In this document: positions 6,809-32,592 of the stretch, in pieces | Layout of the letters: each line of letters begins with the position of its first letter | Position numbering within the stretch: position 1 is the first letter of the stretch | Source: Pseudarthrobacter albicanus | GTDB lineage: Bacteria > Actinomycetota > Actinomycetes > Actinomycetales > Micrococcaceae | NCBI RefSeq assembly: GCF_018224015.1 | Contig: NZ_JAGPOT010000041.1 | Span: 1 to 64,000, forward strand | Length of the DNA stretch: 64,000 nucleotides | Direction: 5' to 3' | Position numbers and translations under genes: made by a program | The notes under the pieces: generated by a model | What the model was told of the DNA's origin: nothing | The model's input: the letters and a program-made list of their open reading frames with translations, nothing else | Database searches by the model: none

Positions 6809-6817
6809 GTCTGTTAG

Positions 6818-7228
6818 CGCTACGAGGCCGAGCTTGAAGATGCCCTGGCGCGCATCGAGACGGCCAAAGTAGGCGTTCCGGCCCGTCGTGCCAAGCATGT
6901 TGCCGAGGCTCGGGAGCTGGATGTGCTCAACGCGGTGTTCGCCCTGCACTACTTTAGTCGGAGGTTCTCCGGGAACATCGCGGAATATGGGCTGGGACCG
7001 ATCGGCCTCAGCGAGGCCCTGGGCGACCTGTTCCCTCCGAAGCAGATTGATAAGGCTGTTGCCCAATCCGACGCCCTGACCGAAGAAGGTATCCGTCTGG
7101 GACAAGGTCCTTGGAACTGGGACTCCGACATGGACCACCTGCGCCAGGCCCACCCCGGTTTCAACGTCCGGCCCTCGGCGATGCTCTGGACTGGGGTCGC
7201 CTCCACGGGGACTGGTGAGTCCGCGTAG
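6818..7228 (+). pseudogene. 5'-truncated hypothetical gene
   Basis: An open frame runs from just after a TAG at 6815 to 7228. It encodes about 136 residues (starting YEAELEDALARIETAKVG) with helical, protein-like composition and natural codon use, but there is no start codon with a ribosome site near the beginning. The first in-frame GTG at 6923 lies inside an apparent coiled-coil region. It looks like a gene whose 5' end was replaced when the HNH gene arrived. No family was recognised. Confidence 0.5.
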
Positions 7229-7322
7229 TCCCGTTCCCTTTTCGACCAATGCAAGTCAAAACTCATCCCCAGGAAGTTTCGTAACACGCGAAATTCGATA
7301 ACGGTCGTTTCGGACTATTCCG

Positions 7323-8252: not shown

Positions 8253-8612
8253 GCCGCACCGACCCGACTGTCCGGGTACACTTCGGTCGTATAGGAGCCT
8301 CTAGCCCAGGCCCGGAGTTCATCCATGTGTGTCATGAGATGTTTTGATCCTTACCTGCTGCGCTTTGAAGTGCTGATTTCGGTTCCATTGTCTGTGATTG
8401 CTGCGCCGAAGGGGTGGCGGTGGCACTGGGAGCTAGAAAAGTGCGTTAAGAGGCTGATGTCGGGATATCGCTGTAAGTGGGCTACTCGGCCCCTTTTCCG
8501 TCGGCAAGGAACCGCTTGGTTGGTCAACGGCTGATCGGCTTGCCCTCCTATTCCGGCCATAAACTGTCGCTTTTTAGGTCATTTACCCGGGCGTACTTGC
8601 CCACAAAGAAAA
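8253..8612. other. Intergenic region without recognised features
   Basis: This stretch of 360 bases lies upstream of the 309-residue hypothetical gene and downstream of the interrupted gene. Short open frames occur on both strands, but none has a ribosome site or protein-like composition. Promoter elements for the minus-strand gene must lie near 8255-8330 but could not be assigned with confidence. Confidence 0.5.
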
Positions 8613-9095
8613 TCAGCTCAGCCGGCGCGGAACCCGCCAGCTGCCCCCGACGAACGAACTGACCCGCTCGATCAGGTCAATCAGGGTGGCTATCAGCCCA
8701 ATAAGGTTTTCCGGGCTGGCATCATCCCACCCGACAAATACAGAGAGGGATGGCCGCTGGCCTTTCGACAAGGGTTTCCATCCTCCTCATCCGGTCAAAC
8801 CAGCGGTCGACCAGACTCTGTGTGCCAGGTCATTTCGCCGGAACAGCGCGGCGCGAACCTCCCCCATCAATACGATCCCTTGAGCTGCGAACTGTCGTTC
8901 AGCGTCGGTCGAGTCGTACAGCCTAAGTCGGTCAGTGGCGAGCGTCAGGTTCGCCCCAACGGCCGCACCGGCATGGACTTCCTGCGCCCGGTTGTCAACG
9001 GAAGAAACCACAGCCTCGACTCTAGTTTCGAGGAGTGCCGCGAGCATGACGATTCGGCCCAGGAGCGCAGGGAGCTCTGGAGGGGTCGGGATCAA
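8613..9095 (-). pseudogene. Hypothetical gene interrupted by an in-frame TGA
   Basis: From the ATG at 9095 the frame encodes 102 residues ending RNDLAHRVWSTAGLTG before a TGA at 8787-8789. The same frame stays open after that stop for a further 57 codons (GGWKPLSKGQRPSLSVF, VGWDDASPENLIGLIATL) to a TGA at 8613. The downstream part looks like genuine protein, with a Trp-rich start and an amphipathic helix, so the stop is probably a nonsense mutation in a gene of about 160 codons. RNDLAHRVW is the kind of motif seen in small HEPN-like or MAE_28990-like proteins. It ends 18 bases upstream of the stop codon of the ISP enzyme, which lies on the same strand. Confidence 0.6.
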
Positions 9096-9112
9096 TCATT
9101 CAGACCCGTCGT

Positions 9113-13975: not shown

Positions 13976-14404
13976 AGAGAAAACCCCCGGAGAAGAGAAG
14001 CATGCGGATCCGGCTTGAACCGGTGTCTCTGATCATATGATCTTCCACGCCGCTCCCGACGCCGTATGTGATGCGCAGCCATCGTTGTCGTCCGACGGTG
14101 GTGCTTTCGATCCTCACAATGGGTCGTTTTGACCTGTGAATAGGGCACCTTTACCGGGAAGTGTTGCGGGCGGGTTTACGGGAATCGGCGGGCCCGGAAG
14201 CTGGGCGTCTGTAAGAGTGCTGCATGTTGCCCTGCTGCCATCGGTGGAGGACCGGCTGACGGCACCACTTGGCAGCATCGGTTCATGACAGAAGGTATTT
14301 CGCGATGACTGCCTTTCGCTACAACGTGGGAGGATGACCCGAGAACCGCTGACGTGCTGACTGCCCGCCGGTCCGCGGGAACTGACGGCTCTAGAGGGGG
14401 ACCC
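13976..14404. promoter_or_regulatory. Divergent promoter region between the ISP enzyme and the Lamassu operon
   Basis: This gap of about 430 bases separates two divergent defence units. A perfect 12-bp palindrome, GATCATATGATC, lies at 14031-14042, about 55 bases upstream of the ISP start, in a locally AT-rich patch. It could be an operator or a methylation-sensitive site. The remainder, toward the Lamassu start, contains no obvious gene. Confidence 0.4.
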
Positions 14405-16165
14405 ATGATGACAGCTGAACCACTGAGGACTGTGCCTGCCGTCCTCGCGCGGTTCGACACGACGTTGTCGCAGTTCGCCGCAGCGTTTGAAGATGGCCAG
14501 TACGTCTTGTGGCTTGGTTCAGGCATTTCCCGCGACAGGGTGCCAAACGTTTACTCGCTCCTGGAGCGTGTCATTGAATCCTTGCGTGTCAGCATCAACC
14601 CAGACGACGAGTCGTGCGCGTATCGCCCTGCGTTCGATACCGTGCTTGAGTTGGCAAGCCTGACAGCGAAAGAGCGAGCGACCATAGACAGCACCATTCC
14701 GTTCGCAGAGTGGGCGCTCCGCGAGCGAATTACTGGAGTTCTCGCCAATCGCTATGCCGAGGTTCTGGACGTCGAGGTTGAAGGGGAGGCGAAGGATTAC
14801 CTCGTGTGGGAGGTCCTTGACGTCCCGCAGACCTATGGGTCGCCCGATATTGAACCCGATGTTGAGCACTACTGCATCGCGCTTCTGATGCTTGAAGGGC
14901 TCGTCGACTCAGCAGTGACCGCGAACTGGGACGGGCTCGTAGAGAAGGCATTGAGTGAACTCATGCCCGCATTCGACGCAGTTACTCGTGTCATCATCAA
15001 ACCTGAGGACTTTCAACTCCCCAAACGGCATGTTGAGTTCGTCAAATTCCACGGCTGCGCTGTCCGAGCTCACGGTGACGCCAGTTACCGACCCTTACTC
15101 ATTGCGCGTCATTCACAGATATCCATATGGGCAACCGAAAAGCAGCATCGACCGATGCGGAAGCGATTGGAGTCGCTCTACTCGGAGCGTCCGACACTCA
15201 TGTTGGGTCTGTCAGCTCAAGATGCCAACCTGCACCACATGTTTGGCACGGCTGTCGAAGACTTGACTCGCCCATGGTCCCCGACGACCGCACCGGCGAT
15301 CGTGCTAAGCGAAGAGAGCCTGCTCCCACATCACGCGCACCTTCTGAAAATTACCTACGGCGAGGACTACGACAAGAGTGCCTCCGCGATCGCTGAATCA
15401 GCCATCCTCGGCTCATTCGGAAAGCCCACGCTGCTCGCGTTGGTCCTGTCGTCGCCAACCCAAAAGCTGGCGTTTCTTCTGGAAAAGGTACTGCAGCCAG
15501 CGTGGGCTGAGGGAGAGATCCAGCGCCTGACCGCGAACCTCGTTGATCTGCGCGACTACGCCGCCAGCAATGCCAACCCCTGCAAGTCAGAGGAACTCCA
15601 GCCCTCGGAGATTTCTCAATTCCAACGGGAGTTCCTCGCCCGTCTCATCGACATGACACACCTGGTGTTGACGGTGTTTCGCACCGGCCGCGTGCCGTCA
15701 GCGGACGGACCTCGCTACGAGCCCTTGTCGGACAGACCCGTCAATCAGGCAATTCTCAACCCGGACTTCCCAGCGAAGGAGTTCGGCTTGCTGGGTGTAG
15801 CGCTTGCTTTGGTCGGTCGCGGTCACGCGTCGGGGCATTGGGCGGCCGCCCCGGGTGACAGCACATCACCCTCGAACGGGGTACTTCGTCTCGTGACAGA
15901 CCAGCGCGACGCGCCTGTGTTCTTCGTAAAAGACGCTGCAACGTTGACGGAACTTGAGTTGGACGAGGCATTCGACGACAGCAACGGAAGTGCCTTCGTC
16001 GTCATCGCCAATGAGGAACCCACGGCATCGACTCGGTCGCCGCGGCCGCGTTTCGGTCGCGACGGCAAGACGCGGGCTGGGCGGTTTAGTGTGGCGTCGA
16101 ACGTTGCCGATACGGCTTCTGCTGATGATCTGTTTGAGGCGTTCAAACTGGCGGGAGGATTCTGA
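14405..16165 (+). CDS. lmuA: Lamassu effector with SIR2-like domain (LmuA, Sir2 type)
   Basis: A protein of 586 residues. The N-terminal half is a SIR2-like fold. LGSGIS (38-42) is the nucleotide-binding glycine motif, followed by RDRVPN; TANWD (172-176) holds the conserved Asn and Asp; KFHG (214-217) supplies the catalytic His; GLSAQD (268-273) binds the adenosine end. Sir2 effectors in phage defence typically destroy NAD+ and stop growth. The rest, to 586, is unfamiliar and would contact the partner subunits. The ATG at 14405 follows AGAGGGGGA and is preferred over an earlier GTG. The gene overlaps the next by one base, in the order effector, small subunit, SMC ATPase that defines Lamassu. 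The Sir2 residues are seen; NADase activity is inferred. Confidence 0.87.
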   Translation: MMTAEPLRTVPAVLARFDTTLSQFAAAFEDGQYVLWLGSGISRDRVPNVYSLLERVIESLRVSINPDDESCAYRPAFDTVLELASLTAKERATIDSTIPFAEWALRERITGVLANRYAEVLDVEVEGEAKDYLVWEVLDVPQTYGSPDIEPDVEHYCIALLMLEGLVDSAVTANWDGLVEKALSELMPAFDAVTRVIIKPEDFQLPKRHVEFVKFHGCAVRAHGDASYRPLLIARHSQISIWATEKQHRPMRKRLESLYSERPTLMLGLSAQDANLHHMFGTAVEDLTRPWSPTTAPAIVLSEESLLPHHAHLLKITYGEDYDKSASAIAESAILGSFGKPTLLALVLSSPTQKLAFLLEKVLQPAWAEGEIQRLTANLVDLRDYAASNANPCKSEELQPSEISQFQREFLARLIDMTHLVLTVFRTGRVPSADGPRYEPLSDRPVNQAILNPDFPAKEFGLLGVALALVGRGHASGHWAAAPGDSTSPSNGVLRLVTDQRDAPVFFVKDAATLTELELDEAFDDSNGSAFVVIANEEPTASTRSPRPRFGRDGKTRAGRFSVASNVADTASADDLFEAFKLAGGF

Positions 16166-16737
16166 TGAAGAGTGTCCAGGATGTTCTGTCTGTCCTTGAG
16201 GCCTCTGGTTTCGAACGGCTCCCGAAGCCGTTGACCGTCGCCGGCACAGAATTTGACTTTGACGCCACAGCTCGCGGAAGGCACCCTTCGCATGACTTGG
16301 TTCTCGTCGCGACCGACCAATTTCCCCGTCTGCGTCTCCAGCGCCTCATTGCCGGCCTGGCCCGTTCTCTTGACCTCGCGGCGTCGCGCCGACCCATGAG
16401 TTTGGTACTCATGGGCGAAATCGCCGCCTCTGACCGGATTGAATTGGAACGCTATGCCCGTGTTCTACCTATCGGCTCCGTCACACCCGATGTTGCCGAA
16501 ATCGAGGAGGCAGTCGCTGTCCTGCTTCCCCTCAAACTGCCGGCAGCTGAATTGGTGCATGGCAGCGACCCCGTTAACGAAGTGATGGCTGCGCTCGGCC
16601 CCGTCAACGCGACGACTGCCCACATCGCGCTCGTAAAGGCCGCATTTGATGGGCCTGACGCGGTCCGGGAAGCATTGCGTCGGTACGTTAACGAAGGTGC
16701 GGGTTGGGCTGATGACGTGGAGGACGACGATGAATGA
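16165..16737 (+). CDS. lmuC: Lamassu small subunit (LmuC)
   Basis: A protein of 190 residues with no recognised catalytic motif. It is mostly alpha/beta with basic patches in the first half (RGRHPSHDLVLVATDQFPRL) and an acidic C-terminus (DDVEDDDE). The length and the position between a Sir2 effector and an SMC-type ATPase match LmuC, the small bridging subunit of Lamassu complexes. The start ATG shares a base with the stop of the upstream gene, and its own end overlaps the ATPase start by eight bases, so the three are translated as one coupled unit. Identity rests on gene order, not on motifs. Confidence 0.75.
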   Translation: MKSVQDVLSVLEASGFERLPKPLTVAGTEFDFDATARGRHPSHDLVLVATDQFPRLRLQRLIAGLARSLDLAASRRPMSLVLMGEIAASDRIELERYARVLPIGSVTPDVAEIEEAVAVLLPLKLPAAELVHGSDPVNEVMAALGPVNATTAHIALVKAAFDGPDAVREALRRYVNEGAGWADDVEDDDE

Positions 16738-19144
16738 CGTGCCAATTCGAACGCTGACGGTGTCCGACTTCCGCCGCATAAAGGGCACCCGGGTGCTGCC
16801 GTTCGACGCACCCGTCGTCCTCATCCACGGCCCGAACGGTACAGGGAAAACGAGCGTTCTGTCCGCCTTGGAGCTTGCCCTGACCGGCGGCGTGCGAAGC
16901 ATGGAACGGCAGGATGACCGCTATATATCGCACCTACCGTTCCTCGGGCAGGCGTACGCGACAGTTCGAGCCGACGTCGCCGAGTACCTGCAGGCGGAAA
17001 CGCCCGGTGTCCCATTGACCGTCGGCGGAGCCCGCATCGAAGGCGCCCCAGCGCTCACCGACAAAGCCGCACAGTTCTACGCCGAACGCTGCTATCTGGA
17101 CCAAGCATCCCTGGGACGACTCCTTGAGTTCTACCAGGCCCGGGTGGGTAACGAAGAGTCAGCCCTAGCGAAGTTCGTCAGTGAACTGCTCGGCCTTGAG
17201 AAGTTGGATGCCCTTCGTTCTGGGCTCAGCGAAGCAAACGACCTTCGGCTTCTCAAAAAACTCGCGGTAGGTGTCGAGGATGCCACAACCAAAGCGAAAA
17301 CGGCGGCGGCTCATCTCAAGGATCAGAGCGACCTCCTCGCGAAAACACGGTCAGAGCTCGCTCAGGCGCGGGCTGCGACGCGTGAAGCTGTCGAGGCGCT
17401 ATACCCTGACGTGGCCGACGACATGACGGACTCCGACATTTTGGGGTTCGTCCGGTCGACACTCAGTGACGACCACAGTCGTGTTGTGTCAACCAACGCG
17501 GCGGCACTCCACCAGGAACTCGTCGCGCTGGGCGGTCGCATCTCGGCGCTGTCAGAGCGTCCGTCGACCCAACGAATCCAGGAGATACGTACGGCCTTGG
17601 CGGCCATAATCGCCGAGCAGCAGATTTGGGACGCCACCGAAGGTGTCACCGTCCGCGTCTGGGAGGCAGCTGCGCAGACCGCTGGCGTCAGGCTGCCGAG
17701 CGAACCGCGATTTGCTCTCGAGCGGGCCGCAAACCTCGTCCTTGACGACTTGGATAACGCCTCGAAGGTTCGCGCCAAGGTCGACTCAGTCCGCGCGCAA
17801 TTGGACACCCACCGAAGTCACTTGGACGGCCTTGAAGCCCGTCTCGCGGACGCTCACGAACATTCAAGTGCTCTCGTGGAGGGCCTCACTGCACTCCGCA
17901 CGATCATCGACGACAGCAACGCATGCCCGGTCTGCGACCGTAACTATACCGAAACCGGCGCCCACAGCCTCCCTGCCCACATCGATGCGAAGCTCGCTGA
18001 GCTGACGACACATGGGCAGCAACTCGTAGATCTGCGAACCGAGCGTGACCATGTAGCGGCACGTGTCGCCCGTACCGAAATTGAATACACCCAACTACTC
18101 GACCGCGTTCTGACTGCCGACGAACAGGAGGCCCTCGAACACCACCACGCGAGACTCGTCGAACTTGCCGCGCAGGCTGATGACGTCGAACTAGCCATAT
18201 CTCGTGGCGCAGACCTCACCCGACGGGTGCGCGAGTTTCAACAAGACCTCGATAACCTCGAAACCGCTTCGTCGGAGGACCGTCACATCAGGGGTGAACT
18301 CACCCGATACGCAGCACTTCTCCACGTCGATCTGCCTCCTACGGCCGAATCGCTCCAAACCCCATGGCGTCACCTCCTTGCCCAGGCCGAATCCGAAGTC
18401 GACCGTATTAGGGAAGAGGCCGACCACTACCGGGCAGCGGCCGACGAATCGGACCGACTCGCCACCGCGCTGGAACGCGAGGCAGTCGTGGTTCAGAGTG
18501 TCGCCGAACTCGTCTACCAGAAGAACCAATGGGAAGGCCGGGTATCTGAAGCGAAGCGCCGACAAGCAGTCGCGAAGGAAGTACACGACGCCGCTACGCG
18601 TGCTCGCACCACTATCGTCCAACGCGTCTTCACCGAATCCCTTAACGAAGTGTGGAAGAGCGTGTTTACCAGGCTCGCCCCGAGCGAGGGGTTTATTCCG
18701 AGATTCGGCGTCCCGACAGCCACGAAAACTGCGCTCGACATCAAGTTGGAGACGACTCACCGCACCGGCGCAGCCGGCGGCCCACCCCAAATGATGCTGT
18801 CGGCTGGCAACCTCAACACCGCAGCGTTGTCGCTATTCCTCGCACTCCATCTCGCCGTGCAACCCGTTGTGCCCTGCTTAGTGTTCGACGACCCCGTTCA
18901 AGCCATGGACGAAGTGCATGTTGCACAGTTCGCTGGACTCATCCGCATCCTGGCGAAGCAACACCACCGACAAGTCATTATCGCCGTCCACGAACGGGAA
19001 CTATTCGACTACCTAACCCTTGAACTCAGCCCCGCCTTTGATGGCGACGAGCTCATAACCATCGAGCTCGGCGAACGCGCGACCGACGAGGACGAAGGCA
19101 TAACCCGTCACACATGGAAGCCCGACGCCGCAATTGCCAGCTAG
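16730..19144 (+). CDS. lmuB: Lamassu SMC-like ATPase (LmuB)
   Basis: A protein of 804 residues in the Rad50/SMC superfamily. Walker A is GPNGTGKT (34-41). Long coiled-coil arms flank a CPVC zinc hook (399-402). The ABC signature region lies near 687-700 (LSAGNLNTAALSLFLALHLA), and Walker B is LVFDDP with the adjacent DE (718-727), then a terminal VHE switch histidine. This protein dimerises at the hook and binds DNA ends or unusual plasmid or phage structures, releasing the effector on activation. The start at 16730 (MNDVPIRTLTV) is chosen because it overlaps the LmuC stop and gives a standard N-terminus; the frame is open further upstream inside lmuC. All motifs look intact. Confidence 0.88.
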   Translation: MNDVPIRTLTVSDFRRIKGTRVLPFDAPVVLIHGPNGTGKTSVLSALELALTGGVRSMERQDDRYISHLPFLGQAYATVRADVAEYLQAETPGVPLTVGGARIEGAPALTDKAAQFYAERCYLDQASLGRLLEFYQARVGNEESALAKFVSELLGLEKLDALRSGLSEANDLRLLKKLAVGVEDATTKAKTAAAHLKDQSDLLAKTRSELAQARAATREAVEALYPDVADDMTDSDILGFVRSTLSDDHSRVVSTNAAALHQELVALGGRISALSERPSTQRIQEIRTALAAIIAEQQIWDATEGVTVRVWEAAAQTAGVRLPSEPRFALERAANLVLDDLDNASKVRAKVDSVRAQLDTHRSHLDGLEARLADAHEHSSALVEGLTALRTIIDDSNACPVCDRNYTETGAHSLPAHIDAKLAELTTHGQQLVDLRTERDHVAARVARTEIEYTQLLDRVLTADEQEALEHHHARLVELAAQADDVELAISRGADLTRRVREFQQDLDNLETASSEDRHIRGELTRYAALLHVDLPPTAESLQTPWRHLLAQAESEVDRIREEADHYRAAADESDRLATALEREAVVVQSVAELVYQKNQWEGRVSEAKRRQAVAKEVHDAATRARTTIVQRVFTESLNEVWKSVFTRLAPSEGFIPRFGVPTATKTALDIKLETTHRTGAAGGPPQMMLSAGNLNTAALSLFLALHLAVQPVVPCLVFDDPVQAMDEVHVAQFAGLIRILAKQHHRQVIIAVHERELFDYLTLELSPAFDGDELITIELGERATDEDEGITRHTWKPDAAIAS

Positions 19145-19611: not shown

Positions 19612-20955
19612 TTACTCGGTGTCTGCGGTGTGCTTGTCGAGGATGATCTGCTCCACGGCGCTTGCCGTGTAGCCCCAGGTGGTGAGCTGGTGCAGGTAGT
19701 GGAAGTGCCGCTTCTCGGCGGACCGCCATGAGTCTTTCTGGATGGTCTTTTCATACCCTGCGCAGATCAGGGCGATGAGGGAGAACTCGGGCCGGGCGGT
19801 GGTTTTGGCGGTGTGGTCCCGCAGCGGGTTCCAGCCCCACCGGTCGGTGTCCTCCGCGGTCTTGGCCCCGATCATCTCGGTGGCGACTTTGCCGTCGTAG
19901 CCGCTGGCGGTTTCGGGGTCGTGGGTGATGGCGTGGACGGTGAAGTACTGCCAGCCCTTCGGCGCGGTCTTCCGCGACAGCAGGGTCTTCACGAATTCCC
20001 GCCTCACCTTCGTAGCGGATTCCATCTCGCGGTTATTGGCTATCAGGGTCTTCCGCTCGGCTTTCTGTTCCTCGGTCATCGGGCCTTTCTGGGCCGGGGT
20101 GCCGCCGTCGTAGCGTTCGTACTTCGGGGTGAATCCCAGGTCCTTCCAGCCGGTGATGACGGGGTTGGCGTTGTGCTGGCCCCGGTAGTCGGTGCTGATC
20201 AGGCAGGCGTTGGCGTCTTCGTCGGTGGCCGGTGCCCCGTCTGCCCGCTTGGCGGCCGAGACGTACAGGTTCTCTTCGTCGGAGTAGTGTCCGGCGTCCT
20301 CCACGACGGTCTTGCCTTGGGCTTCCAGTTCCGCGATGAGCGTGGCGAGGGCGGCGGCGCTGTCGCGGCGGTCCCGCAGAAGCTGCGCGACGTGTAGGAG
20401 CTGATCGGGTTCGTCCGCGATGACGGACTCCAGTTCCTCGGTCGCGTCCTGGTTCCCTTCAAACTCGGCCATGATGAGGGCTTCGTCGATGGTGTATCCC
20501 TTGCCCAGGGCGGCGGCTCCGGCGTCGGAGGATTTGGCTTTCAGTGCCCCTTCCACGGTGGTCTTGGTGCGTCCGGTCTTCCTGGCGATCGCGGCGGCCG
20601 AGACGCCGATCAGGGACAGCTGGTGGTAGGCGTCGGCTTCGTCCGCTTCGGTCAGTTCGGCGCGCTGGATGTTCTCCACGACCTGGGTCACGATGCGTTC
20701 GGCTTCCTCGGGGGACTCGATGATCATCACCGGGATGCTGGTGCGTCCGGCTTCGACGGCGGCGCGGGTGCGGCGTTGGCCCATCAGCACGTGCACGGTG
20801 CCGTCGTCCTTGCGGTGGGCGATCACGGGTTCCATCACGCCGTGTTCGGCAATGCTGGCGATGAAGTCGGCGGTCAGGGCGGCGTCTTTGCGGACGTTGA
20901 TGTCCACGGTCAGGGTGGCCGGGTCGAGCATTTCAAGGGTCGGTGTGGTGTTCAT
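19612..20955 (-). CDS. ParB/RepB/Spo0J-domain protein, long version
   Basis: A protein of 447 residues. Residues 5-110 are a ParB N-terminal domain, with the GQRRTRA box at 59-65 and ENIQRAELTEADEA at 94-107, the parts that bind CTP in canonical ParB. A helix-turn-helix follows (SAAAIARKTGRTKTTVEGAL, about 119-138). The C-terminal 270 residues are unlike chromosomal ParB and lack the usual dimerisation leucine pattern. The ATG at 20955 follows AAAAGGAG. Chromosome-like partition is unlikely, since a ParA-RHH pair exists at 31.9-33.1 kb; it is probably a plasmid-specific regulator of the KorB/nucleoid type. Its transcript carries the repeated leader element described at 21027-21345. Confidence 0.88.
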   Translation of the reverse strand: MNTTPTLEMLDPATLTVDINVRKDAALTADFIASIAEHGVMEPVIAHRKDDGTVHVLMGQRRTRAAVEAGRTSIPVMIIESPEEAERIVTQVVENIQRAELTEADEADAYHQLSLIGVSAAAIARKTGRTKTTVEGALKAKSSDAGAAALGKGYTIDEALIMAEFEGNQDATEELESVIADEPDQLLHVAQLLRDRRDSAAALATLIAELEAQGKTVVEDAGHYSDEENLYVSAAKRADGAPATDEDANACLISTDYRGQHNANPVITGWKDLGFTPKYERYDGGTPAQKGPMTEEQKAERKTLIANNREMESATKVRREFVKTLLSRKTAPKGWQYFTVHAITHDPETASGYDGKVATEMIGAKTAEDTDRWGWNPLRDHTAKTTARPEFSLIALICAGYEKTIQKDSWRSAEKRHFHYLHQLTTWGYTASAVEQIILDKHTADTE

Positions 20956-21026
20956 GGTGTTGCTCCTTTTGCAGAGGATTTGGTGGGTGGGGCGGCTCAG
21001 GTGACCGGCCAGCTTCCCCTCTCCCC

Positions 21027-21345
21027 CCGTTGTTTTTGGTTGCTGGCAAGCTTGCTTGCTCGGCGGCCGACGGAGCCCTGTCCACCCGCAGGGCAAGGTG
21101 GAGGAAATTCCCGGAGGAAATCAGCGACGCAGGAGCGCCGGAGGGACATTTCCTGCACCGCAGGCCCCGACGAAGGAGGGGCTGGACGGGGTGGAGCGGA
21201 CGCCTAGAATCCGGAGGACAGCAACCAAAAAACGTCGCAGACGTCAACAGGGCCAGGGGGTCCGGAGCTCTGCGACGGCGCGCCCTGGACCCCATAGCCG
21301 GCCGCGCAGCGGACGCCCTTATGGGTGCGAGCCCTGCGAGCATGC
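21027..21345 (-). ncRNA. Leader element copy A (repeated structured RNA candidate)
   Basis: First of three related elements of about 300 nt, each beginning 74 nt upstream of a start codon. A long-range inverted repeat (GTTTTTGGTTGCTG at 21031-21045 against CAGCAACCAAAAAAC near 21219-21233) closes a domain. Inside it, a second helix pairs 21098-21112 with 21143-21158 (GTG, AGGAAAT and CCC on one side against CAC, ATTTCCT and GGG on the other). The sequence of this inner helix differs in the other two copies but pairing is kept. There is no protein-coding capacity. It is probably a transcribed 5' leader or a processed RNA of the ParB-domain gene. Confidence 0.7.
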
Positions 21346-21417
21346 CGTTTGCGCAACAGAGGGGTGCGCAAGGTCTGACCCCAATCGGCGGGTGGGTTGG
21401 GTCGTTAGAGTTGGGGC

Positions 21418-21675
21418 ATGAGGGAGGCGGATCCTGCCGCGCGGGACGGAAACGGAGCGGCCGGAGGCTTGCCGCCGAAGGCTTTGTTGGTCCTGGCCGG
21501 TGTCTTCTCGGCCGCCGCGTTGGGCTGCCTTGTTCTGATCGGTGTGGACCTGTCCATAGGCAGGCCGGCGTCCGGGGACCTGTTCATCGGGGGGCTGAAC
21601 GGGGTCCTGGCTGCCGTCTTCTGGGCGTGGTTCGTTCGATCCCGGCCCCGCGGAGCGGGAGCCGATCTCCGGTAG
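21418..21675 (+). CDS. Small membrane protein
   Basis: An 85-residue protein with a charged N-terminus, two hydrophobic helices (ALLVLAGVFSAAALGCLVLI and FIGGLNGVLAAVFWAWF) and a short basic tail ending in SRPRGAGADLR. No family was recognised. The start follows a weak GGGG-rich site. It runs opposite to the neighbouring ParB-domain gene, in the same direction as the small gene that follows. Confidence 0.55.
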   Translation: MREADPAARDGNGAAGGLPPKALLVLAGVFSAAALGCLVLIGVDLSIGRPASGDLFIGGLNGVLAAVFWAWFVRSRPRGAGADLR

Positions 21676-21792
21676 CCCGTCTGTCCTGTGTCCCGCCTCT
21701 TGCCGAAGACACGCTCCCCGTCCCCCACGCCCTGCCGGGACGGAGGGACGTTCGAAGCGCAAGCACCCGGGAACGCGAAGGAGAGCAATCCC

Positions 21793-21993
21793 ATGGATCC
21801 CGTGCAGCAGGACATCAAGAACATGGACCGTCGTATCCGCGCCGGGTACACAGGTTCGTCCCGGCCGGTCATCATCCCGGCGCTTCGGCGGGAAATGAAG
21901 GCCGTAGGGTTCCCAGACCCTTCTGATCAGCTTGTCCGCAGCTATGCCGCTGCCGTGGAGCACGACGAGGCGTTCACCTTCACGCTGCGATGA
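21793..21993 (+). CDS. Small hypothetical protein
   Basis: A 66-residue protein (MDPVQQDIKNMDRRIRAGYT, ending EHDEAFTFTLR). The frame is open further upstream, but this ATG follows GAAGGAGAG with proper spacing and is taken as the start. It is composed of two short helices with basic and acidic halves; no family was recognised. A strong terminator hairpin lies 69 bases downstream. Confidence 0.6.
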   Translation: MDPVQQDIKNMDRRIRAGYTGSSRPVIIPALRREMKAVGFPDPSDQLVRSYAAAVEHDEAFTFTLR

Positions 21994-22061
21994 GCAGGCA
22001 GGGAAGTTTTCCAGGCAAGGACGGAAGGACGGCCGTGCGCCGGGCCACCCGGCGGACACGG

Positions 22062-22087
22062 GAAAGCCCCTCGGAGGAGGGGCTTTC
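22062..22087 (+). terminator. Rho-independent-type terminator
   Basis: An 11-bp perfect stem (GAAAGCCCCTC with GAGGGGCTTTC) around a GGAG loop, placed downstream of the 66-residue plus-strand gene. Few T residues follow, as is common in high-GC actinobacteria. Confidence 0.75.
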
Positions 22088-22245
22088 AACGGATAGATCA
22101 GTAGTTGGGTCATGTTGGTCAGCGGTGATGTGCTCCCCCTTCCCGGGCGCCGGAGGCGCCCCTGCCGGACTGTGTACTGCAAGACAGTAATAGGCGGACC
22201 GGCGCCCTGTCCAGCAACAGGGCACAGCGTTTTGTGCCGGACGGC

Positions 22246-22278
22246 GAAAGAACCGGCACGTGATGTGCCGGTTCTTTC
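22246..22278. terminator. Strong hairpin terminator
   Basis: A perfect 14-bp stem (GAAAGAACCGGCAC with GTGCCGGTTCTTTC) around GTGAT, followed on the plus strand by TGTTTT. It lies downstream of the minus-strand 49-residue gene and could also end plus-strand transcription. The loop and following bases match those of the hairpin at 19308-19342. Confidence 0.75.
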
Positions 22279-22333
22279 TGTTTTCCCTCTGCATAGGAAA
22301 TCTGTGGGCGCAGCCGGTGTTGCTGGGGGCCGC

Positions 22334-22483
22334 TCACTCATCGAGCGGGTGCTCGTCCTGCGATACGTCCGCCGGCCCGGTCCCGGGCGCGGCTGTGAGC
22401 AGGCGCAGCTCGAGGGTGTCCTCGGCGGCGCTGGGGTTTTCGGGCCTTTGGTCGTCCTCGGTCATGATGAATGCTGATCCCAT
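22334..22483 (-). CDS. Small acidic protein
   Basis: A 49-residue frame starting MGSAFIMTEDDQRPENPSA and ending DVSQDEHPLDE. A GGAG ribosome site lies about ten bases upstream of the ATG at 22483, with a second in-frame ATG at 22465, and a strong hairpin terminator follows the stop. The peptide is acidic and disordered-looking. No family was recognised. The combination of ribosome site and terminator supports a real small gene. Confidence 0.45.
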   Translation of the reverse strand: MGSAFIMTEDDQRPENPSAAEDTLELRLLTAAPGTGPADVSQDEHPLDE

Positions 22484-22668
22484 GGCAGGGTGCTCCAGTG
22501 CTGGTGTGTGGGGCGGCGTTGTCCTTTCACCCTAGCGGCGGATCCTGGCCGTTGGCTGTCAGGTGGCTGCGCCCGCGTCAGCGTTGCCGGCGGCCGGAGG
22601 AGCGAAGCGGGGGAGGCCGCCGGCGCACCGCCTGAAAAACCTGGCGGCACCGGGCCGGACCCCTGATG

Positions 22669-22693
22669 CCGGGCCCCGTGGTGCGGGGCCCGG
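22669..22693 (-). terminator. Terminator hairpin after the DUF4192 gene
   Basis: A 9-bp all-GC stem (CCGGGCCCC with GGGGCCCGG) around GTGGTGC, 16 bases beyond the stop of the minus-strand DUF4192 gene. The 170 bases to the left (22484-22660) are GC-rich with more short inverted repeats and no gene. Confidence 0.7.
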
Positions 22694-22708
22694 CCGGGCC
22701 GGTGCGGG

Positions 22709-23737
22709 TTACTGTCCCCGGGTGGGGCGGTAGGCGGTGTCCTTGTTCGCCGCTACCGGGGCGATGAGTCCGCGGTTGACCAGCTCGGCAAGCAGGACAG
22801 CGAGCCGGAACCCGGTCACGTCCTCGGTGGCGAGCTTGAAGTACCGGGCGGCGAAGCTGGCCTTGCCTTTGAGCCAGTCCAGCCAGCCGATCAGGGACAG
22901 CAGCGGGGCGCGCTGGCCTTCCGGGGTGGCCTTCATCAGCTCGAAGCCCAGTTCCTGGGCGCGGTCCACGCGTGCCCAGTCGGGGCGTGCGGGGAGGTGT
23001 CCGAGCAGGATGTCATCGAATCTGGGGGTGCCGGTGAAATCCCGGGCGGGGGTGATGACGTCGGCCATGAGGTAGTCCCGGATCATCTTGTGCTGGAAGG
23101 CGGCCGCGAGCTGCCGGGCCGTGGGACCGGTCAGGGCTGCCGGGTTGTCCAGGATCTGCGCCCACAGGGCGCGGGCGCGGGCCAGGTCGTCGGGGTGGCC
23201 CTGCGGGATTTGGGCGTCGATGGCGGTCCGGGTGTCCCGGTCCCCGGTGAACGGGGCCGGGGCGGTGAATCCGGTGACGAGGCTTCCGGTGTAGATCAGG
23301 GCGGCGTTTGCGTTGCTGGTGGTGATGGCGTCCAGCGGCCGGGCGGGGCAGCAGGTGCTGTCCTCGCACAGGTAGTTGCGCCAGTTCTCGGCGGTGATGA
23401 TCCATGCGTCTTTCAGGGGCATGCCCGCCAGGTCAAGTGCGGCGGTGAGGGCTTGGACGTGCGCGGCGTAGGGGCGGGCGCCGTCGGGGCCGGTTTCGTT
23501 GGTGTAGATGGCCAGCACGGTGGCGGTCGCGGCGTCGTCGGCGGCGAGGTAGGTCACCAGTGCCTGCGCGTAGTCCTTGGGGGCGGCGTTGGACGGGGCG
23601 TCCACGCGGAGGGTCGCGCCGAGCTTTTTTCCCTGCAGGGTGAGCAGGACGAAGGATTCTTCCGGCTGGTAGCCGAGGCTGTGCGGGATGAACGCGAGGA
23701 TGTCGGCGGGGCCGGTGAACTTCAGTGATTCAGTCAT
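22709..23737 (-). CDS. DUF4192 family protein
   Basis: A protein of 342 residues beginning MTESLKFTGPADILAFIPHS, then LGYQPEESFVLLTLQGKKLG, which is the recognisable opening of DUF4192 proteins (phage and plasmid genes of actinobacteria with unknown activity). Two Cys pairs occur in the middle (LCEDSTCCPARPLD). The C-terminal third is helical. It is led by the second copy of the repeated leader (start codon 74 nt from the element edge), and a conserved CCTCTGCAAAGGA segment supplies the ribosome site. Its sharing of a leader with the ParB-domain protein and the two-gene unit at 24.3-25.2 kb suggests co-regulation as plasmid functions. Confidence 0.85.
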   Translation of the reverse strand: MTESLKFTGPADILAFIPHSLGYQPEESFVLLTLQGKKLGATLRVDAPSNAAPKDYAQALVTYLAADDAATATVLAIYTNETGPDGARPYAAHVQALTAALDLAGMPLKDAWIITAENWRNYLCEDSTCCPARPLDAITTSNANAALIYTGSLVTGFTAPAPFTGDRDTRTAIDAQIPQGHPDDLARARALWAQILDNPAALTGPTARQLAAAFQHKMIRDYLMADVITPARDFTGTPRFDDILLGHLPARPDWARVDRAQELGFELMKATPEGQRAPLLSLIGWLDWLKGKASFAARYFKLATEDVTGFRLAVLLAELVNRGLIAPVAANKDTAYRPTRGQ

Positions 23738-23810
23738 GATGTGGTGTCCTTTGCAGAGGAATCGGTGAGGGAGCGGTGTGACCTAAGCCAGCTGCGGATC
23801 TTCTCTCCCC

Positions 23811-24127
23811 CGTTGTTTTTTGGTTGCTGGCGGAGCTTGCGGAGCTGTGGCCGACGCAGGCCTGTCCACCCGCAGGGCAAGGGACGGGAAATTCCCGGAG
23901 GAAATCAGCGACGAAGGAGCGCCGAAGGGAAATTCCCGGGCCGCAGGCCCCGACGAAGGAGGGGCTGGACGGGCCGGAGCGGACACGTATGATCCGGAGG
24001 ACAGCAACCAAAAAACGTCGTAGACAAGGCAGGGCCAGGGGGTCCGGAGCTCTGCGACGGCGCGCCCTGGCCCCACAGCCGGCCGCGCAGCGGACGCCCT
24101 TAGGGGTGCGAGCCCTGCGAGCATGCT
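23811..24127 (-). ncRNA. Leader element copy B
   Basis: Second copy. The outer inverted repeat GTTTTTTGGTTGCTG (23815-23829) pairs perfectly with CAGCAACCAAAAAAC (24002-24016). The inner helix pairs CGGGAAATTCCC (23885-23896) with GGGAAATTCCCG (23927-23938) at 11 of 12 positions, different bases from copy A. The right half, up to GAGCATGC, is nearly identical to copy A. It precedes the DUF4192 start by 74 nt. Confidence 0.7.
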
Positions 24128-24313
24128 CTTTTTTCCTGGTTCCCACGGGCCGCCCCTGCCGGCCCCGTGTCCTGGGCGGGGCCGGCGCACCGGCTAAGCT
24201 ACCGGCGGCACTTGCCGGAAACGGCGGTCCGCCGCCGGGGACCACAGCGCCACCTGGCCAGGGGCGGCGGACCGCCAGCGGTGACCGGCCCGATGGACCG
24301 GCCACCCGTTTCC

Positions 24314-24661
24314 TTATTCGCGGCGGTCGTGCAGCGGTACGGCTCCGTAGAAGTCGATGCCGGCGCGGAACCGTGAGTCGGAACTGAAGATGAACGCGCC
24401 GCCGAACATGTACCACGGGGATTCTTCGTCCTCCGTGTGGAGGGGTTCGGCGTGGTAGGTCGCGCCGTTCGCGTTGTCCCGCTTGATGATGTGGACGGCG
24501 GGACGTTCGGCGGTGGCTTCAAAGATGGGGTCGATGCCGGGGCCGATGACGGTGACTTCGGTGGCCGTGGCTGAGATGCCCCGGTTGGAAAAATCGATAC
24601 CCAGGGCGTCGCGGTAGATCAGGGCGGGCAGGCCCTTCAAGGGTGTGCGGTTCTCGTTCAT
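24314..24661 (-). CDS. Hypothetical plasmid protein, downstream member of a pair
   Basis: A protein of 115 residues starting MNENRTPLKGLPALIYRDAL. It is beta-rich with a YMFGGAFIFSSDSRFRAGIDFY segment in which aromatic and charged residues alternate. No domain was recognised and no signal or membrane segment is present. It follows the 142-residue gene after a 77-base gap on the same strand, so both probably share the transcript that begins with leader copy C. After its stop (24128-24313) come GC-rich palindromic words (CGGCGGTCCGCCG at 24222-24234, GGCGGACCGCC near 24267) like those after the ParB-domain gene. Confidence 0.7.
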   Translation of the reverse strand: MNENRTPLKGLPALIYRDALGIDFSNRGISATATEVTVIGPGIDPIFEATAERPAVHIIKRDNANGATYHAEPLHTEDEESPWYMFGGAFIFSSDSRFRAGIDFYGAVPLHDRRE

Positions 24662-24738
24662 GGTCGTATCTCCTTGTCGGGGGTGTGGGTGCCGGTGCGG
24701 CTCACGGGGTCCATGAGCCGCACCGGCTAAGTGCTGGC

Positions 24739-25167
24739 TTAGGCGGTCCAGCCGGGGTAGGGGGCGCGGTCGCGGCCGGGCAGTTCGGCGGCGGCCGCCG
24801 GGAGGTTGTCCGGGCCGTGGGCCTGTCCGTTGGCCCAGGAGAAGAAGGCGTGTTCGGTGATGGCCTCCCACTGGGCCCGCTGGGTGCGGTAGTAGGTGCA
24901 GGTCACGTCGCCCTCGCAGTAGGTGGCGACGCCGAACAGGTTCCCGGTCCTGTCGGCGGTGCGGGTCGCGGCGACGATGACGTAGGGCCATTGGCCCAGG
25001 TCCCAGCCCTCACTCCCCCAGTTCGGGATGGCGGCCCAGCCGTCTTCGCCGATGGCGTCGATCCATTCGTAGCCGTCGCCGTGGTGGAAGTCCCCGAAGA
25101 CCAGTGCGCCGGGGATCACCTCGCCGGTGTCGGCGGTGATGACGGCGGGGGTGGTGGTGTCGTTCAT
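24739..25167 (-). CDS. Hypothetical plasmid protein, first gene after leader C
   Basis: A protein of 142 residues (MNDTTTPAVITADTGEVIPG) rich in Trp and Gly (DAIGEDGWAAIPNWGSEGWD), with two Cys in CEGDVTCTYYRTQRAQW and a Pro-rich end. No catalytic motif was recognised. The same frame is open far upstream, but the ATG at 25167 is preceded by the conserved CTGCAAAGGA ribosome site used by the other leader-bearing genes. It is probably a small plasmid-specific protein of the same regulon as DUF4192. Confidence 0.75.
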   Translation of the reverse strand: MNDTTTPAVITADTGEVIPGALVFGDFHHGDGYEWIDAIGEDGWAAIPNWGSEGWDLGQWPYVIVAATRTADRTGNLFGVATYCEGDVTCTYYRTQRAQWEAITEHAFFSWANGQAHGPDNLPAAAAELPGRDRAPYPGWTA

Positions 25168-25240
25168 GGTGGTGTGTCCTTTGCAGAGGAATCCGGTGGG
25201 CGGGGAGCGGTGGGTGACCGGCCAGCTTCCCCTCTTTCCC

Positions 25241-25530
25241 CGTTGTTTTTTGGTTGCTGGCGGAGCTTGCGGAGCTGTGGCCGGCGGAGGCCTGTCCACC
25301 CGCAGGGCAAGGGTTGTGCAATCTGCGCAGGGAATAAGCGACGAAGGAGCGCCGGAGCCGATTGTGCGCACCCGCAGGCCCCGACGAAGGAGGGGCTGGA
25401 CGGGCCGGAGCGGACACGTATGATCCGGAGGACAGCAACCAAAAAACGTCGTGGACAAACAGGGCCGGGGCCGGCGGAGCCCTGCGACAGAGGCACCGGG
25501 CCCCACAGCCGGCCGCGCAGCGGACGCCCG
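25241..25530 (-). ncRNA. Leader element copy C
   Basis: Third copy. The outer repeat GTTTTTTGGTTGCTGG (25245-25260) pairs with CAGCAACCAAAAAAC (25433-25447). The inner helix has changed entirely. GGGT and CAATC (25311-25323) face GATTG and ACCC (25360-25373), so both ends pair, with an internal loop between. Flanking blocks CTGTCCACCCGCAGGGCAAG and CGACGAAGGAG are unchanged among copies. It starts 74 nt upstream of the 142-residue gene. The element's distal end is shorter than in A and B, running into the divergent HA-domain gene. Confidence 0.68.
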
Positions 25531-25599
25531 AAGGCTTTGTCTCTGGACCGGCCGTGTCCCCCCACATTGCGGGGCACCGGTGGCAGGATGGGGTCCATC

Positions 25600-26271
25600 A
25601 TGGACAGGCGGTTGCGGCGCGCTCCGGACGCGGAATGGGTGCTGATGTACCGGCTCGGACTGGGCCGGGCCCGCATCGCTGCCCTCGTACGGGTCCCGCC
25701 CGCGGCCGTCGGCTACCACCTGGGCATCGCCCGCCGCCGGGACCCCGGGCTCGAGGCCGAACACCAGGCCGCCGCCGGCACCGCAAAAAGCCCCGGCCCC
25801 TCCCCCAGAAACCTTGCCCGCATGGGCCTTGCCCGCATGGAAGAGGTCATCGCCTGGGCCTCGGCCCGGGGCCGGCTGCCCGAGGGCCGTTCCGGCGACC
25901 GGGGCGAACGGTCCATGGCGCGGTGGCTGTCCGCACGCCGGCGCGAAGCAGCCGCCGGCACCCTGGATCCGGCCTACAGTGACGGGCTGGTCCGGGTGCC
26001 CGGGTGGCTGGAGAACCGCAGGGAAGCCGCGGACGAAGCCCGCTGGCACCACCGGCTCGCCCGGCTCGTCGCCTTCCGGCAGGAAGGCAACGACTGGCCC
26101 CGCCACCATCACTGTGACTCGGACCTGGAACACGAGCTGGGGGTCTGGATCCACGTCCAGCGGGACAAACGCCGCCGCGGAAAACTCGACCCCGTCAAGG
26201 CCAAGCTGCTGGATGACGCGGTTCCCGGATGGCGGGCCGGCAGGACCCGGGGCCGCCCTCCCCGGCAGTGA
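25600..26271 (+). CDS. Helicase-associated (HA) domain protein
   Basis: A protein of 223 residues. Residues 10-45 look like a helix-turn-helix (MYRLGLGRARIAALVRVPPA). Residues 145-215 form an HA domain: WHHRLARLVAFRQEGNDWPR, an H-rich linker, LEHELGVWIHVQRDKRRRGK, and the end PGWRAGR. HA domains bind DNA and occur as tandem copies in actinobacterial plasmid helicases; here there is no helicase. The start at 25600 has a GGATGGGG site. A second, frameshifted paralogue lies at 29195-30111, including the same 3' flanking sequence, so a segment of about 0.75 kb was duplicated. Confidence 0.8.
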   Translation: MDRRLRRAPDAEWVLMYRLGLGRARIAALVRVPPAAVGYHLGIARRRDPGLEAEHQAAAGTAKSPGPSPRNLARMGLARMEEVIAWASARGRLPEGRSGDRGERSMARWLSARRREAAAGTLDPAYSDGLVRVPGWLENRREAADEARWHHRLARLVAFRQEGNDWPRHHHCDSDLEHELGVWIHVQRDKRRRGKLDPVKAKLLDDAVPGWRAGRTRGRPPRQ

Positions 26272-30394: not shown

Positions 30395-31440
30395 CACCGT
30401 GAGTCCGTTACTACGGAGCATCCGGACTCCGTCAGTCTGGGAGTCTGTGAGCCCACCGCAATGTTGCCGACCAGACAACCCATACAACCCGGTCCGGCAG
30501 CCTCGCCGCTTCGGAAACTACGGAACTACGGAACTACGGAACTCTGTCACTCTGTCGTACCCCGAGTCCGTGAGTCCGTTACTACCGAACATCCAGACTC
30601 CGTCAGTCTGGGAGTCAGGGAGTCTGTGAGCCCACCGCAATGTTGCCGACCAGACATCCCATACAACCCGGTCCGGCAGCCTCGCCGCTTCGGAAACTAC
30701 GGAACTACGGAACTACGCAACTCTGTCACTCTGTCGTACCCCGAGTCCGTGAGTCCGTTACTACCGAACATCCAGACTCCGTCAGTCTGGGAGTCAGGGA
30801 GTCTGTGAGCCCACCGCAATGTGCCGACCAGACATCCCATACAACCCGGTCCGGCAGCCTCGCCGCTTCGGAAACTACGGAACTACGGAACTACGCAACT
30901 CTGTCACTCTGTCGTACCCCGAGTCCGTGAGTCCGTTACTACCGAACATCCAGACTCCGTCAGTCTGGGAGTCAGGGAGTCTGTGAGCCCACCGCAATGT
31001 GCCGACCAGACATCCCATACAACCCGGTCCGGCAGCCTCGCCGCTTCGGAAACTACGGAACTACGGAACTACGCAACTCTGTGACTCTGTCACACCGTGA
31101 GTCCGTTACTACCGAACATCCAGACTCCGTCAGTCTGGGAGTCAGGGAGTCTGTGAGCCCACCGCAATGTGCCGACCAGGCATCCCATACAACCGGTCCC
31201 GCAGCCTCGCCGCTACGGAACTACGGAACTACGGAACTCTGTGACTCTGTCACACCGTGAGTCCGTTACTACCGAACATCCAGACTCCGTCAGTCTGTGA
31301 GTCAGGGAGTCTGTGAGCCCACCGCAATGTTGCCCGACCAGACATCCCATACAACCAGTCCGGCAGCCTTGCCGCTGCGGAAAGTACGGAAGTCTGCCAC
31401 TCTGTCACGCCGCCAGTCCGTAACCCTGTTACCTCTGCAC
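30395..31440. repeat. Tandem repeats of about 160-179 bp, candidate centromere or origin iterons
   Basis: The segment beginning GAGTCCGTTACTAC recurs at 30401, 30572, 30751, 30929, 31099 and 31259, with a degenerate seventh near 31414, giving periods of 171, 179, 178, 170, 160 and about 155 bases. Each unit is itself built of short words: GGAACTAC in runs, CTCTGTCACTCTGTC, GAGTCCGT, GGGAGTC and a conserved CCACCGCAATGTTGCCGACC. ACAGAG/CTCTGT words continue through 31590-31750 and flank rep. The position directly before parA makes this the likely partition site for the RHH protein. Short ORFs that appear inside are by-products of the repeat. No gene exists between 30112 and 31932. Confidence 0.85.
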
Positions 31441-31932: not shown

Positions 31933-32592
31933 ATGAGGGTCGTAGCTGTCGTCAACCAAAAAGGCGGCGCAGGGAAAACCACCACGGTGATGAACCTTGC
32001 CGCCGTTGCTGCGCAGAGTTCGAAAGTGCTCGTGGTCGACGCAGACCCGCAAGGATCAGTCACCATGTGGGCCACGAATGCAGAGGAACTCCCGGAAAAG
32101 GAACAACTTCAGTTCGATGTAGCGACCGAAACAGACCCCGAAGCGCTCAAGCAAATGCGCGACCTCGACTACGACACGGTCTTCGTCGATACCCCGGGTA
32201 ACTTGGAAAATACCAAGGTGCTCCAGGCAATCGTTGGCCAGTGCGACTTCATCGTGATGCCCACAGAGGCAACCCCGTTGGCCCTCCTGCCCTTGGTTTA
32301 TACGTTCGAGAAGATCGTCCAGCCCTTCGGCCTGGACTACAGAGTTGTAATCACAAAGGCCGATTCACGTTCCCCGCAAGATGCGCTAGACGCCCAGGAG
32401 ATGCTGCGGGAGCAAGGGATCCTTGTATGCAACTCACTTGTCCGCGCCTACAAAGCTCATGAGCGGGCGCCAATGTACGGGACAGTAGTCACGTCCTACG
32501 AAAAAACACGGAATTCCGAGAAAGCAACCATGGATTACAAGGACGTCGCCCTGGAGCTGTTTAGTCTCTGGGCCAACACAGGGAAGGGCTGA
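31933..32592 (+). CDS. parA: ParA-family partition ATPase
   Basis: A protein of 219 residues. The deviant Walker A is KGGAGKTT (10-17), with signature Lys10 and Lys15. The second motif is DADPQGS at about 36-42, followed by FVDTPGN at about 77. Its length places it with small type Ib ParA/ParF/MipZ proteins, which pair with ribbon-helix-helix ParG-type partners. It polymerises or patterns on the nucleoid to segregate plasmid copies. The gene is preceded by 1.2 kb of tandem repeats and followed five bases later by the RHH gene, a classical partition cassette. Confidence 0.93.

Follow-up and report, generated by a model that had tools for sequence, protein, structure and literature searches.

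The 64,000-nt stretch of Pseudarthrobacter albicanus DNA considered here (contig NZ_JAGPOT010000041.1, positions 1 to 64,000 of the forward strand; hereinafter, the window) contains three homologous elements between 20.9 and 25.6 kb, all on the plus strand and each located before one minus-strand gene. A profile places these elements, denoted A, B, and C, at positions 21022–21343, 23805–24124, and 25235–25534, respectively. With copy B as the query, BLAST retrieves copy A (89% identity, E = 1.4e-109) and copy C (87% identity, E = 2.0e-95) on the same strand, which, together with the profile match, bears out the suggestion of a first-pass annotation of this DNA that three elements of the same orientation share common blocks. 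The genes behind the elements, all of them of leading-region type and on the minus strand, encode a ParB N-terminal-domain protein (copy A; 19612–20955; Pfam PF02195, 4.6e-11), a DUF4192 protein (copy B; 22709–23737; Pfam PF13830, 6.4e-34), and a conserved protein of 142 amino acids (copy C; 24739–25167; 12 homologues, 55–69% identical), the latter with no match in Pfam, PHROGs, or NCBIfam. The gene of a 115-amino acid protein (24314–24661, minus strand; PHROG 6045, 9e-12) is probably the second gene of the copy C operon.

Each element consists of a core, predicted to form a hairpin, and a second structured stretch 3′ of it. The cores are matched by R1, a covariance model built from 48 distinct copies (the sequences given by those 53 out of 58 profile matches that were full enough), at positions 21019–21238 (240.9 bits), 23803–24021 (250.0 bits), and 25233–25452 (234.4 bits) of the plus strand. 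The long-range inverted repeat pointed out in the first-pass annotation is real: as read from the sequence, its arms lie at 21032–21045 and 21219–21233 in copy A, 23815–23829 and 24002–24016 in copy B, and 25245–25259 and 25433–25447 in copy C, and form the base helix of the hairpin, with the 5′ arm as the putative template for the first transcribed bases. For copy C taken alone, the minimum-energy fold departs from the family fold in the inner part. The second stretch, domain 2 (21239–21345, 24022–24127, and, in a shorter form, 25453–25534, plus strand), is kept in the profile matches and occurs in most copies from plasmids of the Arthrobacter group; four copies, whose profile match ends near position 213, do not reach it. 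A strand preference was looked for in domain 2 and was not found.

The pairing within the core is retained through sequence change. In alignment A3, which takes in the best 150 of the 167 matches with E ≤ 1e-12 from 81 sources (139 distinct sequences; 53 pairs), 96.1% of cells pair, compared to 85.0% in shuffles; 39 out of 53 pairs change on both sides, versus 22.1 ± 2.1 in shuffles and 13–21 in slid controls; and two-sided changes are seen in 782 cells versus 204 in shuffles. Since the copies share ancestry and the model was used to fit A3, these shuffle counts are no probabilities; unfitted MAFFT alignments agree with A3 in direction. The base helix, helix 1 of A3, is 98.2% paired. The inner helix, which had been noted for having different letters in each copy, corresponds to helices 9 and 10 of A3 (96.4 and 96.2% paired, respectively), and all eight of its pairs change two-sidedly somewhere in the family. 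Hence the covariance analysis of aligned homologues, which had been suggested as a check, upholds the claim of a fold under selection, while its attribution to RNA is not supported, as the folding strand is the template strand and not that of the mRNA.

The strands can be told apart by wobble counts, since a G–T pair on one strand is an A–C mismatch on the other. When counting is limited to pairs predicted on both strands, unfitted MAFFT alignments give, for the plus strand, 91 G–T versus 23 A–C cells in 48 copies and, in 135 copies, 235 versus 87 cells with RNA parameters and 229 versus 72 cells with DNA parameters; by column, 32 favor G–T, and 10 or 11, A–C. The respective counts in A3 are 547 and 25; however, A3 is fitted to the plus-strand model, and thus the unfitted alignments are relied on here. 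The consensus fold of 48 copies scores −152.1 for the plus strand versus −132.5 for the minus strand (a difference of −19.5, compared to −4.4 ± 4.2 in 30 column shuffles), and that of 135 copies, −124.7 versus −101.9. Single copies fold better as the plus strand in 48 out of 48 cases with DNA parameters and in 46 out of 48 with RNA parameters. As the genes are on the minus strand and their mRNA would have the minus-strand sequence, the selected fold lies in the template (antisense) strand.

A neutral scan of positions 20900–25700 on both strands yields three sigma-70-like sites, one per element and all on the plus strand, whereas shuffles give 0.1. The −35 hexamer is TGGACG in all three copies (21183–21188, 23966–23971, and 25397–25402), and the −10 hexamer is TAGAAT in copy A (21205–21210) and TATGAT in copies B (23988–23993) and C (25419–25424). 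DNA folding bears on the hexamers of copies A and B as well; in copy A, the −35 hexamer is paired in the stem, and the −10 hexamer falls largely within an internal loop. The pattern TANNNT is present at one plus-strand column in 52 out of 52 copies, compared to at most 11 copies at any other plus-strand column of the leader and core, and nowhere exceeds two out of 52 on the gene-sense strand. In 135 of the 139 distinct rows, with the −10 box anchored on the bases 3′ of it (which nearly fixes its last T), the consensus is TANAAT with a free third base for the −10 box and T[A/T]GACG for the −35 box, separated by a spacer of 16. In other genera, the −35 box is TTGTGC, TTGACG, TTGAAC, or TTGCGT, and the spacer letters differ. 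The mean pairing probability in single-stranded DNA (ssDNA) folds is 0.86 for the −35 box, 0.34 for the −10 box, and 0.91 for the base helix, the −35 box being paired more than the −10 box in 131 out of 133 copies (those of the 135 whose −10 box has A as its second and T as its sixth base). The promoter, of the sigma-A type, is aimed at the base of the hairpin, and past the base, the template runs on along the same strand into the gene. The promoter and the modeled fold taken together have the geometry of an ssDNA promoter.

The direction of transfer can be addressed through relaxase genes and sites resembling the origin of transfer (oriT). All 58 profile matches have one orientation within each locus. 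An annotated relaxase is present in 11 out of 16 fetched plasmid loci (MobF in L009, L014, L017, and L019; MOBP type in L010, L011, L012, L016, L021, L022, and L023), and the genes behind the elements point toward it in all 11. An inverted repeat, whose arms differ between plasmids yet pair, is followed by YAGCTTGCTCCG in seven regions that lie upstream of mobC or of the relaxase gene, and the same arrangement is found in four further element loci (L061, L075, L115, and L124); examples upstream of mobC are L021:6070–6122, L011:6370–6408, and L124:5284–5329, among others. We take this arrangement to resemble the RP4-type oriT consensus YATCYTG/Y. The elements are on the same strand as, and 3′ of, the inverted repeat and the motif in 11 out of 11 loci, and therefore this strand, if the nick is where it appears to be, would enter the recipient first and serve as the template of the genes. 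The genome of the window has two near-full-length matches to MOBP-type relaxases elsewhere, one on contig C37, beside such an inverted repeat with the motif, and one on contig C194. The oriT-like site may also serve to orient actinobacterial MOBP plasmids.

The distance from the element edge to the ATG is 63–76 nt in 47 out of 55 copies, and the leader in between is conserved. In the other eight copies (two each in L009 and L012, one each in L011, L014, L015, and L018), the automatic start is outside this range or missing; of these, the L011 copy is behind a tandem partial copy, and the L015 and L018 copies are at the record end. For the window, a uniform distance of 74 nt had been reported. 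Measured from the edges used in that report to the starts at 20955, 23737, and 25167, it is indeed 74 nt for the DUF4192 and 142-amino acid protein genes, and 72 nt for the ParB gene. The 5′ leaders of the ParB, DUF4192, and 142-amino acid protein mRNAs (20956–21021, 23738–23804, and 25168–25234, respectively, minus strand) share the block GCTGGCCGGTCACC... and a small hairpin that holds the Shine–Dalgarno sequence and whose pairing, judged by eye, is kept in different letters.

The earlier view of the elements as one regulon with a plasmid gene set agrees with the genes found behind them. The Arthrobacter copies precede genes of ParB, DUF4192, DprA-like, and 142-amino acid family proteins; ssb and glutaredoxin genes lie in the same block in L014, L019, and L021, and some fetched plasmids have umuDC or DNA ligase genes beyond the leading block on the other strand. 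In L106, a locus with divergent copies, one element precedes the gene of a 90-amino acid protein followed by an SSB gene, and another one, the gene of the ArdC anti-restriction protein. Elsewhere among the divergent copies (three of these loci, L149, L150, and L153, belong to the same family as the window), the element is followed by a DUF4192 gene (L109, L153), a ParB gene (L145), or a glutaredoxin gene (L146, L147, L148), and in L105, by the gene of a 129-amino acid protein without a family and then a peptidase-M78-like gene. The gene behind the element has no Pfam match in L151 and L152, and no convincing gene start lies within 330 nt of the element in L149 and L150. The survey of gene content leaves out the copies in L110–L124 and most of those in L025–L094. 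In L019 and L021, the regions preceding the ssb/glutaredoxin operons have no R1 match; in L019, a different, 33-nt inverted repeat is located at 13815–14028, approximately 175 nt upstream of the glutaredoxin–ssb operon, and thus this operon may use another signal.

Taking all this into account, we regard the elements, with a probability of about 85%, as actinobacterial ssDNA promoters of the leading region of conjugative plasmids, predicted to act like Frpo and having no detectable homology to it. This reading draws on features computed here, that is, the family, its fold, the strand that folds, the promoter motif with its pairing, the polarity relative to the oriT-like sites and relaxase, and the gene sets. 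In conjugation, the recipient would receive the plus strand as a single strand, 5′ end first, and each core of ~220 nt would fold into one long imperfect hairpin. The 3′ arm would present the −35 box (TGGACG here; TAGACG or TTGNNN elsewhere), the 16-nt spacer, and the −10 box (TANNAT), and the 5′ arm would pair with the −35 box and in the 15-bp base helix, so that the −10 box would be left mostly unpaired, similarly to a pre-opened bubble. We infer that ssDNA folds in this way in the cell and that the fold is used by the recipient RNA polymerase, which would bind the hairpin together with the housekeeping sigma factor, begin transcription at a point just within the base helix, copying the 5′ arm, and then run off the hairpin and continue on the transferred strand, via a leader of ~65–75 nt, into the gene. 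Synthesis of the complementary strand would abolish the hairpin and, with the promoter inactive in double-stranded DNA, would silence the genes that follow; hence, their products would be early and transient, and would likely establish and protect the incoming DNA.

The closest functional model is provided by Frpo1 and Frpo2 of plasmid F, ssDNA promoters on which leading genes depend for their early and transient expression (PMC9849209; this and the following papers are cited by the parts of their text available to us). Like the Frpo/ssi sequences of F and ColIb-P9, the elements belong to the leading region and to the strand that is transferred (in the window, by homology, and with the nick placed by likeness), occur in multiple copies that each precede leading genes transcribed toward oriT, and are predicted to fold in the transferred strand into a stem-loop that reconstitutes the −35 and −10 boxes. 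The leading region of F also overlaps in gene types (SSB, ParB-like, antirestriction), and the DNA fold of the F strand upstream of ssb is likewise one dominant long hairpin. The inner core and the hosts are unlike, and the function has been shown for Frpo, whereas for the elements it is predicted. A search of the 20-kb segment 48000–68000 of F with R1 gives nothing convincing (the best match has E = 0.078 and is not upstream of ssb). The family is thus outside the Frpo sequence family, and its action is Frpo-like by prediction.

The nearest Gram-positive precedent found is EGeRS1 of the Bacillus plasmid pLS20, repeated structured sequences with ~325 conserved nucleotides directly upstream of the ribosome-binding sites of establishment genes; like some plasmids considered here, pLS20 encodes an ArdC protein (PMC8708921). 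For EGeRS1, the verdict in the text available is against an ssDNA promoter, mainly on the ground that the strand transferred there is not the template; the fold, moreover, yielded no promoter (PMC8708921). Neither property is seen in our elements, as their transferred strand appears to be the template and the fold contains a promoter. Frpo-homologous promoters have been described as widespread in leading regions, with a search by structure and consensus where Frpo similarity is absent, and umu-like genes flanking many of the islands (Samuel et al., 2024; PMC11541004). These candidates and the elements are alike in being predicted ssDNA promoters in leading-region anti-defense islands, and differ in that the former were found by Frpo similarity or by consensus and fold in single islands; Actinobacteria, Arthrobacter, DprA, and DUF4192 are not mentioned in the main text as available (PMC11541004).

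Two papers credit Mihasan and Brandsch (2016) with conserved DNA repeats on Arthrobacter plasmids (PMC10494377, PMC6305408), and one of the citing papers sites the repeats 5′ of DUF4192, DprA, and ParB. By this description, the repeats share with our elements the location upstream of these three genes on plasmids with the type IV secretion system; the elements stand before DUF4192, DprA, and ParB genes, e.g., in L019 and L023. As far as can be judged from the citing papers, the elements and the 2016 repeats are very probably the same objects. The citing papers, in the parts available, speak of partition and conjugation markers and mention no fold, promoter, or single strand, and a literature search, mostly without subscription papers, returned no title or abstract beginning that claims ssDNA promoters on actinobacterial plasmids. 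Repeats at these plasmid places have therefore been in print since 2016, and we have not seen an ssDNA-promoter function proposed for them in the literature covered; if correct, our interpretation provides these repeats with a function.

Several observations weigh against the ssDNA-promoter interpretation. The −35 boxes TAGACG and TGGACG match the consensus at only four positions out of six, the −10 box often departs from TANNAT outside the home family (L105, L106, L109, L135, and L145), and L139 has no clear −35 box. If read in double-stranded DNA, the same −35 and −10 boxes would be directed away from the genes. A stretch of the F leading region (5000–11000 of F 48000–68000) yields no site in the promoter scan, and hence the scan is no general detector of ssDNA promoters. 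The nick position follows from likeness to the RP4-type consensus; an alignment of four relaxase-adjacent regions of MOBF plasmids did not reveal a nick site. The 12-base motif has three more matches, at L012:35506 (inside an annotated gene), L067:1771, and L076:5253, which lack the inverted repeat and lie on the strand opposite to the elements; they were not counted above. The window has no oriT motif, and no relaxase is found among its 27 reading frames scanned, so that its transfer polarity rests on homology. As the leader is also conserved and carries the Shine–Dalgarno hairpin, control at the RNA level may be added. Finally, the inner core of the fold is more conserved across the order boundary than a promoter needs and is not accounted for by the promoter model.

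The first-pass annotation favored a large regulatory or processed RNA, possibly of an undescribed class. A structured 5′ leader RNA of the minus strand, acting by attenuation, antitermination, or binding of a ligand or protein, would explain the near-constant distance between the element and the start codon and the conserved leader with its Shine–Dalgarno hairpin; moreover, the minus strand folds well as RNA too (z = −2.2), and EGeRS1 sets a precedent of structured sequences before establishment genes that, according to their authors, are not ssDNA promoters (PMC8708921). However, the wobble asymmetry and folding energy favor the plus strand, whereas the leader RNA would be minus; the gene-sense strand has no conserved −10 box over the leader and the adjoining 225 nt of the element, the only conserved promoter being on the plus strand; by the oriT-like sites, the strand that is transferred and acts as the template would be the plus strand; and the polarity suggested here is the reverse of the non-template transferred strand that was the main argument of the pLS20 authors (PMC8708921). 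We therefore find a leader RNA quite improbable as the main function, and the selected structure is better explained as folded ssDNA than as a new RNA class, although an RNA role may exist beside the ssDNA function. The Rfam search that had also been suggested confirms that the element belongs to no Rfam family (0 matches at gathering thresholds in the whole window). A small structured plus-strand RNA made from double-stranded DNA and antisense to the leaders would account for the strand of the selected fold, and its promoter could start an RNA running through domain 2. Such an RNA is very unlikely, as the promoter sits at the 3′ end of the folded core and most of the core would remain outside the transcript, other plus-strand TANNNT columns do not exceed 11 out of 52 copies, and four copies stop short of domain 2, which shows no strand preference.

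Two further explanations concern DNA. For an ssi- or sso-type initiation or primer site, serving mainly second-strand synthesis rather than gene expression, the same fold and strand are expected as for an ssDNA promoter, and F's Frpo, going by the title of a 1997 paper of Masai and Arai, reportedly serves both transcription and primer RNA synthesis. Yet the fetched stretches contain from one to six copies, each 63–76 nt before a gene start (in 47 out of 55 copies), a layout that priming alone does not need; a purely priming role is thus improbable. The elements could also be double-stranded partition sites (parS), given that one of the controlled genes encodes a ParB-domain protein and that the citing papers, in the parts available, call the 2016 repeats shared partition and conjugation markers. 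This seems extremely unlikely, since double-stranded DNA sites do not evolve so as to keep pairing through sequence change and with strand asymmetry, and a more natural centromere candidate is present in the window, namely, a tandem array of 5.8 copies of a 178-bp unit (30397–31391), 0.5 kb before a ParA-like gene (31933–32592).

If the elements are indeed ssDNA promoters, such promoters extend beyond Frpo-like sequences to plasmids of Actinobacteria with MobP-type and MobF-type relaxases. The family offers comparative evidence for an ssDNA-promoter fold, including the promoter bases and the strand, and the covariance model flags genes that actinobacterial plasmids may express on entry. As the genes behind the elements may be expressed in this way, the 142-amino acid, DUF4192, and DprA-like proteins are candidates for a role in establishment or anti-defense.

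The inner core, ACCCGNAGGG...GGAAATNAGCGA...AGCGCCG, is kept with small changes across the order boundary (e.g., L106:8622–8740, L109:7103–7316, and L149:5470–5683, among others), while the outer stem and the letters of the −35 and −10 boxes vary. Because of this difference, we tentatively suggest, as a possibility that is less likely than its negation, that the inner core is a recognition module of folded ssDNA, which a dedicated protein of the plasmid or host may read to recruit or license RNA polymerase. If true, this would make the inner core a conserved regulatory element akin to an ssDNA aptamer; we know of no precedent for such an element in conjugation.

By BLAST, the elements are found at 187 places in 63 plasmid records (44 conjugative, 10 mobilizable, and 9 non-mobilizable) from Arthrobacter, Paenarthrobacter, Pseudarthrobacter, and Citricoccus. 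A pattern of the 3′ arm retrieves 70 stretches from a collection of 84,980 genomes, 69 of them titled Arthrobacter, Paenarthrobacter, or Pseudarthrobacter; the 70th, from Rhodococcus sp. KRD162, is also located before a reading frame that, judged by eye, is ParB-like. The same pattern has 0 matches in the viral contigs searched. In overlapping genome samples, R1 matches 77 out of 245 genomes (17 out of 32 genera) of the window's own family, 16 out of 297 genomes of its order, and 7 out of 394 genomes of its class. The order and class matches include divergent copies in other families, and another order is represented by three genomes of one genus. The strict inner-core pattern is found in fewer genomes of the class than R1 (4 out of 394). 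On five plasmids with ArdC, at most weak R1 matches are obtained, namely, in L139 (E = 1.1e-6 and 3.7e-6), L135 (2.4e-4), L138 (0.0028), and L137 (0.24 at best), with none listed for L136. Weak matches are also seen in L107 (22 bits), near which no leading-type gene was seen, and in G635 (E = 8e-4).

Some copies are located on contigs of 1.4–4.8 Mb (L038, L084, L087, L114, L117, L119, L124, L147, and L153) and perhaps belong to integrated conjugative elements. In L011, a partial copy retaining only the 5′ part (20055–20159) directly precedes the full copy upstream of the ParB gene, which suggests recombination between copies. Beyond the elements, the window carries defense-like genes at 9113–19144 and 51177–58471, including those of a type ISP restriction–modification system, SIR2-like, SMC/AAA ATPase, and DUF1016/YhcG nuclease proteins, and a weak NACHT match. 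The Tomitella plasmid L139 has two near-identical copies (2743–2926 and 10476–10659) of a different long hairpin, which start ~78 nt before genes, the first with a perfect base helix of 15 bp; this hairpin perhaps represents a further ssDNA-promoter family in Mycobacteriales.

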